Positions 44,699 through 48,128 of a stretch of 64,000 bases of DNA are shown here, one piece after another; the first letter of the stretch is position 1, and each line of letters starts with the position of its first letter. The position numbers and the translations under genes are program-made. The notes under the pieces are model-generated. The model saw nothing but the letters and a program-made list of their open reading frames with translations, was not told the DNA's origin and did not search any database. Location: contig KB906767.1 in assembly GCA_000381625.1 (NCBI GenBank), forward strand, positions 438,729 through 502,728, read 5' to 3'. The stretch is from Bryobacterales bacterium KBS 96. GTDB lineage: Bacteria > Acidobacteriota > Terriglobia > Bryobacterales > Bryobacteraceae.

Positions 44699-45736
44699 AT
44701 GGAGTTTCGCCGTATCTTAGTGCGTGCTACCAACTGGGTTGGAGACGCAGTCATGTCCCTGCCCGCGCTGCACGCGCTTCGGGCGGCATACCCGCGCGCG
44801 CACATCGCTATTCTCGCGCGGCCGTGGGTGGCGGGTCTCTACGGACGTGAGCCATTTTGCGATGAAATTATTCCCTACGAAGCCGGAAAGGGGTGGAGGG
44901 AACTGGGGACGAAGGCTGTAATTGCTGTCTCGCTGCGCGACCGGCAGTTCGACTGCGCGGTCCTGCTGCAGAATGCCTTTGAAGCTGCGGCGCTGGCGTG
45001 GATGGCGCGCATTCCGGTGCGTATCGGCTACGATCGCGATGCGCGCGGGCGGCTGCTGACAAACCCTGTTCCCGTGCCGAAACCCGGCGAAATACCGGTG
45101 CATCAACGGTTTTACTACCTGGAGCTATTAAAACGCGGCGGCTTGATCCCGGCCTATTCTCTCGAATCCGAAATCCGGTTGACGGGTGGCGGGTCCGCGG
45201 CCCAGAATGGACGAGCGCTGCTATCGGGCGCCGGATTGAGCCCACCGTTCCTCGGCGTCAGCCCAGGGGCTGCCTTCGGAGGCGCGAAGCGCTGGCTTCC
45301 GGAGCGTTTCGCGGACAGCGCCGTGAAACTGGCGCGCCAGCGTGGCTCTTCCGTCGTAATTTTCGGATCGAAAGAAGAAGCGGTAATCGGAGAGCAGGTT
45401 GCCCGCGAAATCGAGCAGGCGGGCGTGGCCGTTCATAACCTGGCTGGGAAGACTTCGTTACGGGAATTCATCGACATGGCAGCCGCTTGCGAGCTGTTTC
45501 TCACAAACGATTCGGGCAGCATGCACATCGCATCCGCGCTTGGTATCCCGACCGTCGTCATATTCGGCCCGACGGACGAAACCGCGACAGGCCCTGCCGG
45601 GCGCAGAAACGCGGTTCTTCGCGAGCCGGTGGAGTGCTCGCCCTGCCATCGCCGCGAGTGCCCCATCGATCACCGCTGCATGACGCGCGTCACTGCGGAT
45701 CGCGCCGTGGAGGCTGGGCTGGAGTTGCTGAAATAG
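44699..45736 (+). CDS. waaF: ADP-heptose:LPS heptosyltransferase II
   Basis: Adds the second heptose to the lipopolysaccharide inner core. The 345-residue GT9 protein begins ILVRATNWVGDAVMSLPAL, a waaF hallmark, and has the acceptor and ADP-heptose sites SPGAAFGGAKRWLPERFA and NDSGSMHIASALGIPTVVIFGPTD. The C-terminal CxxCHRRECPIDHRCM cluster is common in the family. It is the first gene of a possible core-oligosaccharide cluster, although a 465-base gap with the dispersed repeat follows. Confidence 0.94.
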   Translation: MEFRRILVRATNWVGDAVMSLPALHALRAAYPRAHIAILARPWVAGLYGREPFCDEIIPYEAGKGWRELGTKAVIAVSLRDRQFDCAVLLQNAFEAAALAWMARIPVRIGYDRDARGRLLTNPVPVPKPGEIPVHQRFYYLELLKRGGLIPAYSLESEIRLTGGGSAAQNGRALLSGAGLSPPFLGVSPGAAFGGAKRWLPERFADSAVKLARQRGSSVVIFGSKEEAVIGEQVAREIEQAGVAVHNLAGKTSLREFIDMAAACELFLTNDSGSMHIASALGIPTVVIFGPTDETATGPAGRRNAVLREPVECSPCHRRECPIDHRCMTRVTADRAVEAGLELLK

Positions 45737-46201
45737 ACCAATGCGTGAGAACGTGCTTTCGAATGCCGGTTACCTTTTGTGGACACTTCGACCGGCAATA
45801 ATGAGGAAGTCCCCATGGTCCTGTGGCTCACAGAATCGGATGAAGACGCCTTTCGACCCGCGCACCCACGTGCGGCGGCTCTGTTTCCGGGTAACCTCGA
45901 TTCGGAGCCGCCTTGCGTCAGCAAGCGGGTTTTCCGGTGGCCGTGTAACGCCCGGTTACCTGCACCGAACCGCGACCGTCAGGGAGCGGATGTCTTCAAC
46001 GGAGCGGACGTTTAACCGAGTACTCCGTGGCGCAGGCTCTCAGCCTTGCAGCGTCGAGACTCATCTCGACGAAGTCACCCCTAAGAGGCCGGGCGCCGAG
46101 TCCCCGCACAGCAGACACGAGTGTCCGCGCCAGCGGCTTATCGATCAAAGATTGCTCCCATCAACGAGCCCCTGGAAACCTGAGATGTCTCGAGAGATTT
46201 A
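45737..46201. other. Gap filled by repeat sequence
   Basis: No gene is supported. The left half contains copy 2 of the dispersed repeat. To the right, phrases such as CGTCGAGACTCATCTCGACG (46049-46068) form further short hairpins, suggesting more than one repeat unit. The gap splits the heptosyltransferase genes. Confidence 0.5.
45839..46000 (+). repeat. Dispersed palindromic intergenic repeat, copy 2
   Basis: Collinear with copy 1 (3277-3433): GATGAAGACGCCTTTCGACC, then GGCGGCTCTGTTTCCGGGTA, the partner arm CGGAGCCGCC, GCAAGCGGGTTTTCC and GAACCGCGACCGTCAGGGAG. Differences from copy 1 are scattered substitutions, as expected for an old dispersed family. Confidence 0.75.
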
Positions 46202-46597
46202 GTGGATACAAGAGAAAAGATTCGTAGTTTAGAGAATTTACGCGAAACGTTGTCGCGCGACGCCTGGACCGTGATTGCCGGTTTTTTCGACCCGTTGACG
46301 GCGGAGGCTGCCGAACGAGTCGCCGGTCTGGCGGCGGCCGGACGCAAATTGTTGGTCGTGATCCGGCCGCGCGATAACGAGTTGCTCAGTATGGAAGCGC
46401 GGGCCATCCTGATGGCGGCATTGCGATGCGTCGATGCCGTGTACATCGAGACATCACCGGAATGGCGCGACGTGGTGCGGCGGAATCCTTCGGCCAGAAT
46501 CGATGAGGATAGCGCCGCCGATCTGCGGCGCAGCCAGGAATTGGAGCGGCTGGTGTTGGAGCGGCAGGCCGCTGCCGTGGGACCGCAAGCCGGATGA
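46202..46597 (+). CDS. HldE/RfaE-type nucleotidyltransferase-like protein lacking the HxGH motif
   Basis: A 131-residue protein. Residues about 22-80 (AGFFDPLTAEAAERVAGLAA, then LLVVIRPR, then EARAILMAALRCVDAVYIE) follow the Rossmann-like nucleotidyltransferase domain of ADP-heptose synthase, but the catalytic HxGH is replaced by TAEA-like residues. It therefore probably cannot transfer a nucleotide. It sits directly before a heptosyltransferase gene with an ATGA overlap, which suggests a regulatory or scaffold role in core-heptose synthesis. GTG 46202 is the start used. Confidence 0.65.
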   Translation: MDTREKIRSLENLRETLSRDAWTVIAGFFDPLTAEAAERVAGLAAAGRKLLVVIRPRDNELLSMEARAILMAALRCVDAVYIETSPEWRDVVRRNPSARIDEDSAADLRRSQELERLVLERQAAAVGPQAG

Positions 46598-47565
46598 AAA
46601 CGCAGCGGCCAGCTATTCTCATCATCCGCCTCAGCGCGATGGGCGACATCTTGTCCACGTTGCCCGCCGCTTCTAGTCTGCGAAAGAGTTGTCCGGAGCA
46701 TCGCATCGTATGGACGATATCGCCCAAGTGGCTCCCGCTCATCGAGGGCAATCCCGATATCGACGAGATTGTTCCGTTTCATCGGAATGGACTTCCCAAT
46801 CTGCTGGCGTCGCTAGGCAAATTGCATGCAATCAGACCGGAGATCGCGATTGATTTCCAGACGCTCATCTATACGGCAGCAATTGGCCGTCTTGCCCGGC
46901 CGCGCCGATTTTATGGGTGGGATGCTGGTTATTCGCGCGAATTCCTGGCAGGCTATTTTTACTCCCATCGCATTCGTTACCGGTCGGAACATGTTGTCGA
47001 TCAAAATCTGGAATTGGCCGCCGCGGCCGGAGCGGCTGAACTCGTCCGCGAATTTCGCATCCCCGCCGGCTCGCCGGAAGGTGCGCTGCCCGCGGGTCCA
47101 TTTGTGCTCGCAAATCCCTTTGCCGGCTGGGCGGCGAAAGAATGGCCGCTTGCCAATTACCCGCTGCTGGCCGAAGCCTTGAAGCCGGAAGGCCTGGCGC
47201 TGGCGTTGAATGTGCCGCCGCAGCGCCGGCAGGAAGTGAACGAACTCGCTGGCGTACACATTCACGTTTCCTCGCTGCCCGGCCTGATCGACGCCACCCG
47301 CAGAGCTGCCGCGGTTCTCGGGCTCGACAGTGGCCCGCTTCATTTGGCGGCGGCTCTTCGCAAGCCTGGCGTCGCGCTTTACGGCCCGACGGACCCGGCG
47401 CGCAACGGACCTTATGGCGGAACTGTCCGCGTGATTCGGGGTGCGGCGGCGCGCACATCACATAAACGGCGTAAGCAAATCGATCCCAGCATGAAGACGA
47501 TTACGGTGGATCAGGTCCATGACGCGCTCCGGGTCGTGCTGAACACGGCGGGTTCGCACGCATGA
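46594..47565 (+). CDS. GT9 heptosyltransferase (heptosyltransferase I-like)
   Basis: A 323-residue GT9 glycosyltransferase with the start ILIIRLSAMGDILSTLPA and the donor-site region VLGLDSGPLHLAAALRKPGVALYGPTDP, as in waaC-type heptosyltransferases that add the first heptose to Kdo. The overlaps at both ends (46594-46597 and 47562-47565) make it the middle gene of a tight three-gene unit. It is clearly different from waaF upstream, so both core heptose transfers may be encoded here. Confidence 0.9.
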   Translation: MKTQRPAILIIRLSAMGDILSTLPAASSLRKSCPEHRIVWTISPKWLPLIEGNPDIDEIVPFHRNGLPNLLASLGKLHAIRPEIAIDFQTLIYTAAIGRLARPRRFYGWDAGYSREFLAGYFYSHRIRYRSEHVVDQNLELAAAAGAAELVREFRIPAGSPEGALPAGPFVLANPFAGWAAKEWPLANYPLLAEALKPEGLALALNVPPQRRQEVNELAGVHIHVSSLPGLIDATRRAAAVLGLDSGPLHLAAALRKPGVALYGPTDPARNGPYGGTVRVIRGAAARTSHKRRKQIDPSMKTITVDQVHDALRVVLNTAGSHA

Positions 47566-48128
47566 ATCGGGTCAGGTACTGGTTTCCCAAACCATACGCG
47601 GACCGGGTGGCCAGACTGCGCGTGCCGTTCGGCTTCCTGCTGCTGGTGACCTTTGCGTGGCTCTCGCGTCCGACCCCGGAATCGATGGCCATCGGACTCC
47701 CTATCGGCGTGGTTGGATTGCTCATCCGTGGCTGGGCCGCCGGGCATCTCGCCAAAAACGAGCGGTTAGCCGTCAGCGGACCATACGCCCACATTCGCAA
47801 TCCTCTCTATGCGGGGACGTTGATCGTGGCGGCCGGCATCGTCATCGCGTGCCGGGACTGGCCCCTGGCCGTCATCTTTGCCGCTGTATTTCTGCTTGTC
47901 TATCTGCCGGTGATTGAATTGGAAGAGCAGCACCTGAGAAAGCTGTTTCCGGAATACGCCGCTTACGCCGACTGTGTCTACCGGTTGCTGCCCCTACGGA
48001 GTTGGCGCGGCGGCACTGCCCATTTTCGCTGGCGGCTCTATCGGAAAAATGAGGAGTACAAAGCATTAGCCGGCTTCCTGCTGGCCGTGGGCTGGCTCAT
48101 CGTGAAATGGAGACTTTGGCGGGTCTGA
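47562..48128 (+). CDS. Isoprenylcysteine carboxyl methyltransferase-like membrane protein
   Basis: A 188-residue integral membrane protein with four or five hydrophobic segments. The SAM-binding signature typical of ICMT/PEMT-type enzymes is seen in GPYAHIRNPLYAG and the E-E pair in VIELEEQHLRKLFPEYAAYADCVYR. The substrate of bacterial members is mostly unknown. Linkage by ATGA overlap to the GT9 gene suggests modification of the lipid A-core or another envelope lipid. Confidence 0.85.
   Translation: MNRVRYWFPKPYADRVARLRVPFGFLLLVTFAWLSRPTPESMAIGLPIGVVGLLIRGWAAGHLAKNERLAVSGPYAHIRNPLYAGTLIVAAGIVIACRDWPLAVIFAAVFLLVYLPVIELEEQHLRKLFPEYAAYADCVYRLLPLRSWRGGTAHFRWRLYRKNEEYKALAGFLLAVGWLIVKWRLWRV

Follow-up and report, generated by a model that had tools for sequence, protein, structure and literature searches.

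Gene organisation at the locus

The window analysed here, a 64,000-nucleotide stretch of the 6.69 Mb genome of Bryobacterales bacterium KBS 96, carries on its forward strand a cluster made up of a WaaF-like GT9 gene, a short gene referred to here as X, a WaaC-like GT9 gene and a gene for a PEMT/ICMT-like methyltransferase (Table 1). The WaaF-like protein shares 85% identity with its counterpart in a relative of the same genus. For the second GT9 the top NCBIfam model is heptosyltransferase I (heptsyl_trn_I, E 6.8e-35), matched at 120.8 bits and under its cut-off of 185.3, and the methyltransferase has a weak similarity to LmtA (40.6 bits against a cut-off of 325).

Table 1. Position of the genes and the spacer of the cluster within the window
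Feature	Position	Strand	Remarks
WaaF-like heptosyltransferase II (GT9), at the start of the cluster	44699..45736	+	TIGR02195, 226.5 bits, exceeding the cut-off of 134.6
Spacer between WaaF and X	45737..46201	.	465 bp; 19 bp in the same-genus relative L145
X, RfaE2/HldC-derived pseudoenzyme	46202..46597	+	131 aa, GTG start; T-A-E-A at the HxGH position
WaaC-like heptosyltransferase (GT9)	46594..47565	+	PF01075, E 1.3e-28
PEMT/ICMT-like methyltransferase	47562..48128	+	PF04191, E 7e-10

Translation of X confirmed the reading frame originally described, which holds GFFDPLTAE, LLVVIRP and ILMAALRCVDAVYIE and has no HxGH; its GTG start is supported by the proteins of relatives, since these open with the same MDTRxKI. 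The two gene overlaps that had been reported were also present, the stop codon of X (TGA, 46595-46597) being overlapped by the ATG of the GT9 at 46594 and the stop codon of the GT9 (47563-47565) by the ATG of the methyltransferase gene at 47562, each in the form ATGA. Within the spacer upstream of X, bases 69-268 or thereabouts are part of a genome-wide interspersed repeat of about 200 bp. At least 64 matches to this repeat, itself included, are listed in the genome (40 of 267 candidates were scored), and three of the listed matches lie in tandem with a spacing of 177 bp.

Relationship of X to RfaE2

Searched alone, the X of the window had no match at E<=1 in Pfam or NCBIfam, and its link to RfaE2 is made through the members and the profile of its family. 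At E<=0.01, TIGR02199 (rfaE_dom_II) was matched by 27 of 35 members (best 7.8e-11) and PF01467 by 14 of the 35; the curated TIGR02199 cut-off of 181.5 bits was not reached, X places in the genome search scoring about 41 bits at most. The top PDB sequence for the family profile was HldC (5x9q, 4.3e-12). HldC was likewise the best Foldseek match (5xf2, E 7.1e-5) of the AlphaFold model of X (pLDDT 86.9), with a VIA-align Z of 13.7 and an rmsd of 1.8 over 99 residues. X is thus predicted to have the nucleotidyltransferase fold, and the HldE-C/HldC-like origin first proposed for it is upheld by both the profile matches and the modelled structure. Across the phylum the X profile matched 267 of 297 genomes, and the best 17 loci other than X were all RfaE2-like. 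We conclude that X descends from RfaE2/HldC, the heptose-1-phosphate adenylyltransferase. It shares with the C-terminal domain of RfaE2/HldC/HldE (TIGR02199) the fold, the sequence profile, the N-terminal helix, the RAExxxALxxVDxV block and a location in a heptose operon, but differs from it in a shorter C-terminal part and in the absence of HxGH, NGxFD, KGx[DE][WY] and the ST motif. One HldC, BpHldC, is treated in PMC7993394.

In other families of the Acidobacteriota the slot before GT9-ICMT is occupied by an intact RfaE2 with HVGH and KGTDYT (for example L102/L127, L110/L133 and L134-L137), that is, by a protein in the same position as X but with its catalytic motifs kept. A tree was built of 35 X, 20 of these intact slot RfaE2s (type S), 29 RfaE2s of type A (with KG.DW or similar) and two intermediates. 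The 35-row alignment of X omits L056, an off-target second match of G034, and L048, which is cut by a contig end, and L080, another HxGH protein that is not RfaE2-like, was removed ahead of the tree. X formed one side of a single branch with a support of 100/100 and a stem of 1.2 changes per column. The S profile outscored the A profile for 34 of the 35 X, the exception being that of G015, by margins that are small and often of a few bits (15.2 against 10.3 bits for the window X), and the tree joins X, on its long stem, beside the S row L102, without nesting it in S. It is most likely, as far as these comparisons go, that X is the successor of an RfaE2 that once stood in the same operon slot; because the tree gives no nesting in S, the view that X is the heir of the slot's own RfaE2 leans mainly on gene order. 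Two intermediates in family f31 (L103:1351-1893 and L116:1453-1854) are RfaE2s in this slot that retain HVGH and have lost the KGTDY block, and apparently represent a separate half-way decay.

Loss of catalytic motifs and retained constraint

Neither HxGH, NGxFD, KGx[DE][WY], the C-terminal ST motif nor N.D.S was found in any of 89 distinct X sequences; one X (L218) carries TxGH. HxGH and the KG block served to select the intact controls (the 20 of type S and 29 of type A), which therefore carry these motifs by construction; NGxFD, which was not used in the selection, occurs in all 49. The original prediction that X is a dead enzyme was therefore right to judge from its motifs, all of the catalytic ones being gone. 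The positions of the former HxGH are variable among the 89 X, the last of them being H in 61.

The D-[TS]-R-x-K-I motif and an R/A/V core are nearly invariant in the family (D2 in 88 of the 89 sequences, R4 and K6 in 89, I7 in 88, R67 in 88, A72 in 87 and V80 in 88), and in the VDxV region V77 is found in 74/89, D78 in 59/89 and V80 as above. Point estimates of dN/dS were between 0.13 and 0.47, below 1 in all seven close pairs of X (some of which share sequences), with an interval reaching 1.5 in the pair L035/L039. For the window pair the value was 0.30 (0.16-0.51) against 0.10-0.11 in three neighbour genes, a difference that is due in part to the lower dS of X (0.39 against 0.80-0.83 for the neighbours). 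Taken together, the dN/dS values and the invariant residues indicate selection on the X protein, which on this sequence evidence is under purifying selection, looser than that on the enzymes.

Distribution of X and its neighbours in the Bryobacterales

Of the 41 genomes of the order searched with a single sequence, 36 had X, and the family profile A1 added G026 and G031; X was not found in G027 or, by the single-sequence search only, in G010 and G021. Around X in its own family, 18 of 22 loci have the order WaaF-X-GT9-ICMT, and of the remaining ones L034 and L048 are cut at contig ends and L029 and L054 are without WaaF. The first 12 loci of family f3 all have X-GT9, with neither WaaF nor ICMT in the stretch, and L303 of the same family has WaaF-X-GT9. 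The GT9 was within 24 bp of X in all 33 relatives measured, and overlapped it in 22 by the start that the script chose.

Starting from WaaF, 80 named loci were found. An X reading frame ends within 1.5 kb past WaaF in 63 of them, in no case with HxGH, and is followed by GT9 in 59, by the contig end in two and by no GT9 under the script's rule in two; X, again without HxGH, lies farther downstream in four more (L171, L179, L193 and L215). The other 13 comprise four with WaaF-GT9-ICMT and no X (L147, L164, L181 and L182), one cut at a contig end (L202) and eight with WaaF alone. X was found elsewhere in seven of the eight genomes with WaaF alone, adjoining GT9-ICMT in six of them (G340 having two copies), and was not found in G347. 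In G346 the GT9 also lies downstream of X, but at a distance of about 1.9 kb. In G348 X stands after WaaF, the GT9 is about 0.5 Mb away, and X and a stand-alone RfaE2 are both present.

The survey of related genomes that had been suggested thus finds X kept mostly beside the GT9 heptosyltransferase across the whole order. It had also been proposed that homologues elsewhere with an intact HxGH could mark X as a random broken copy. Intact RfaE2s do stand in the same slot in other families, but within the order the dead form makes up a single conserved clade, and because this clade (100/100) spans the whole order a random broken copy is ruled out. A fusion of X to GT9 was considered as proof of contact and rejected: long frames, such as that of 468 aa in G374, merely extend upstream, and no fusion was present in the nine X-bearing regions of 10 fetched.

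Two further features of these clusters were observed. In L170, L177 and L184 WaaF is directly followed by a conserved reading frame of about 150 aa, which precedes X and, in the two of these loci that were scanned, matched no significant Pfam family. An RfaE2-like reading frame with HxGH is found on the opposite strand near the WaaF-X cluster in L148, L152, L170, L177, L201, L203, L204, L211 and L218. By titles and abstract openings, no paper on the X family was found among the matches listed in a limited literature collection.

Co-occurrence of X with stand-alone RfaE2

The genome studied here also contains an intact stand-alone RfaE2 of type A, with all motifs, at C1:1573289-1573702. In 76 genomes such enzymes are separated by profile A3, with 241-269 bits against 165 or less for other matches, and X was scored as matches of profile A1 that do not coincide with an RfaE2 match, many of these, including the weak ones of genus g199, being read as sequence. 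Both proteins were present in 63 of the 76 genomes and neither in nine, with X alone in two (G375 and G025, both drafts) and RfaE2 alone in two (G386, where a contig edge cuts the GT9 and X cannot be judged, and G027, which is 64% complete); Fisher's test, with kinship ignored, gave 2e-8. Of the nine genomes with neither, six belong to genus g200 and have other RfaE2s (HAGH, HNGH or HVGH, with KGx[DE]Y), in two the RfaE2 forms a fusion with a HAD-IIIA/GmhB-like phosphatase, and in the ninth, G359 (74% complete), no RfaE2 was found. A GT9 ortholog is retained at 48-53% identity in all eight of these genomes that have another RfaE2, the ones covered by the GT9 search.

Thirty further genomes gave 21 with both, two with X only (G015 and G341), none with RfaE2 only and seven with neither. 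Two of the thirty repeat other genomes, G339 sharing its match coordinates with G355 and G342 being apparently the same as G018, and among the seven with neither the match of G347 is cut by masked bases and the result for G010 and G021 rests on a weaker X search. G010 and G021 have no X, no RfaE2 match and only distant GT9s; their joint absence would fit any heptose-linked role, and so was counted against a specific partnership with RfaE2.

On a GT9 tree of 57 rows the loss of X amounts to three changes and that of type A RfaE2 to four, all three losses of X coinciding with a loss of type A and the fourth type A loss being that of G015. With only three independent co-losses a sign test is unable to reach 0.05. 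In the three lineages concerned the GT9 is kept, and another RfaE2 is there or none was found. G015 (99% complete) runs against the coupling, retaining X with only an RfaE2-GmhB fusion found, and so do the drafts G341, G375 and G025, which have X without a stand-alone RfaE2. In the sequences surveyed, the phyletic coupling of X is nevertheless closer to the active stand-alone RfaE2 than to the GT9.

RfaE2s fused to a HAD-IIIA/GmhB-like domain were seen at L232, L233, L234, L256, L257, L260 and L263 (five of these loci were scanned), and most genomes with such a fusion are without X, G005 and G015 having both. The HldE kinase was matched strongly (361 bits) in the genome studied here, at C1:4841061-4841996, and only more weakly in most relatives. 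In 41 genomes TIGR02198 exceeded 330 bits in six and had a best match of 99-161 bits in 29 others, and six had no match at E<=1e-20; as a check, this profile was not discriminating.

Possible role of X

Our preferred reading, held tentatively and at slightly less than even odds, is that X is a non-catalytic partner of the stand-alone RfaE2 of the order, usually translated beside WaaC. RfaE2 is preferred to the GT9 as the partner because the losses of X track changes of RfaE2 while the GT9 stays. X may bind and modulate the active RfaE2, acting as a subunit that regulates, stabilises or tethers it, and would do so through the fold and the dimer-interface region that it has kept. Co-translation with WaaC would place the complex where ADP-heptose is consumed. 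In favour of this reading, the two genes are found within 4 kb of each other in eight of 63 genomes; against it, the usual gene neighbour of X is the GT9 and not RfaE2.

X would then join the active RfaE2 as a dead subunit in the manner of a prozyme. The AdoMetDC prozyme has another fold than X and belongs to another pathway. It can serve as a works-like model only, a dead paralog in trypanosomes for which activation of its partner is reported (PMC5201418), whereas for X it is inferred. Like a prozyme, X coexists with an intact homologue, both in its own genome and in 63 of 76 genomes. For the mode of binding, the related cytidylyltransferases GCT and CCT, of the same superfamily as X, are described in PMC4470507 and PMC8262930 as dimerising through an RYVD motif, which in the Plasmodium CCT contacts the N-terminal region of the partner; theirs are active homodimers. 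X retains the VDxV part of the RYVD equivalent and varies least at its N-terminus. What speaks against the dimer reading is that the VD aspartate is found in only 59/89 X. In a bolder and rather doubtful version, the active ADP-heptose synthase would need X as a subunit, and X would tie synthesis to the heptosyltransferase through co-production with WaaC, so that ADP-heptose would be handed over and not released, a prozyme-like channelling specific to the order.

Alternatively, X could serve only the WaaC-like GT9, as its partner or chaperone, whatever RfaE2 the cell has. The close spacing in all 33 relatives would fit this, as would the six of seven genomes with WaaF elsewhere in which X stays with GT9-ICMT, but the three lineages that keep the GT9 without X, where the loss coincides with a change of RfaE2, and G348, where X follows WaaF with the GT9 far off, make it unlikely. 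It is also quite unlikely that X is a decaying relic, kept mostly for the coupling of its upstream reading frame to the GT9 and with a functionless product. Its long branches, its clean loss in three lineages, the higher dN/dS of the window pair (in part an effect of lower dS) and the wide interval of L035/L039 are what a relic would give; the near-invariant residues over 89 divergent sequences, point estimates below 1 in all seven pairs and the confidently predicted fold are not.

The original prediction saw X as a possible sensor or scaffold. That X binds heptose phosphate or ADP-heptose and senses the supply is suggested by its kinship with RfaE2, by R67, which is common to RfaE2 and X and is retained, and by the frequent H at the last former HxGH position, but the nucleotide- and phosphate-binding motifs of the superfamily are gone and the rest of the former HxGH is highly variable, so that we regard it as improbable; a scaffold or partner for heptose supply, put in these wider terms, is plausible on the sequence comparisons. 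Phosphopantetheine adenylyltransferase tolerates TxGH, and the first HxGH position of X is T in 28/89 (with TxGH in one), but that X has remained a nucleotidyltransferase whose active site is rewritten is scarcely credible when this position can also be L, V, R, I, Q, W or G, the third is glycine in only 9/89 and KGx[DE][WY] and the ST motif are absent throughout.

X constitutes a conserved family of the LPS-core cluster in an order of the Acidobacteriota, one left without a name of its own by the Pfam and NCBIfam scans, and the path from an active enzyme to a pseudoenzyme can be traced within one operon slot. If X, as the preferred partner of the active RfaE2, does control that enzyme, a dead paralog would regulate the supply of ADP-heptose, and lineages with a swapped RfaE2 and no X would provide a natural experiment.
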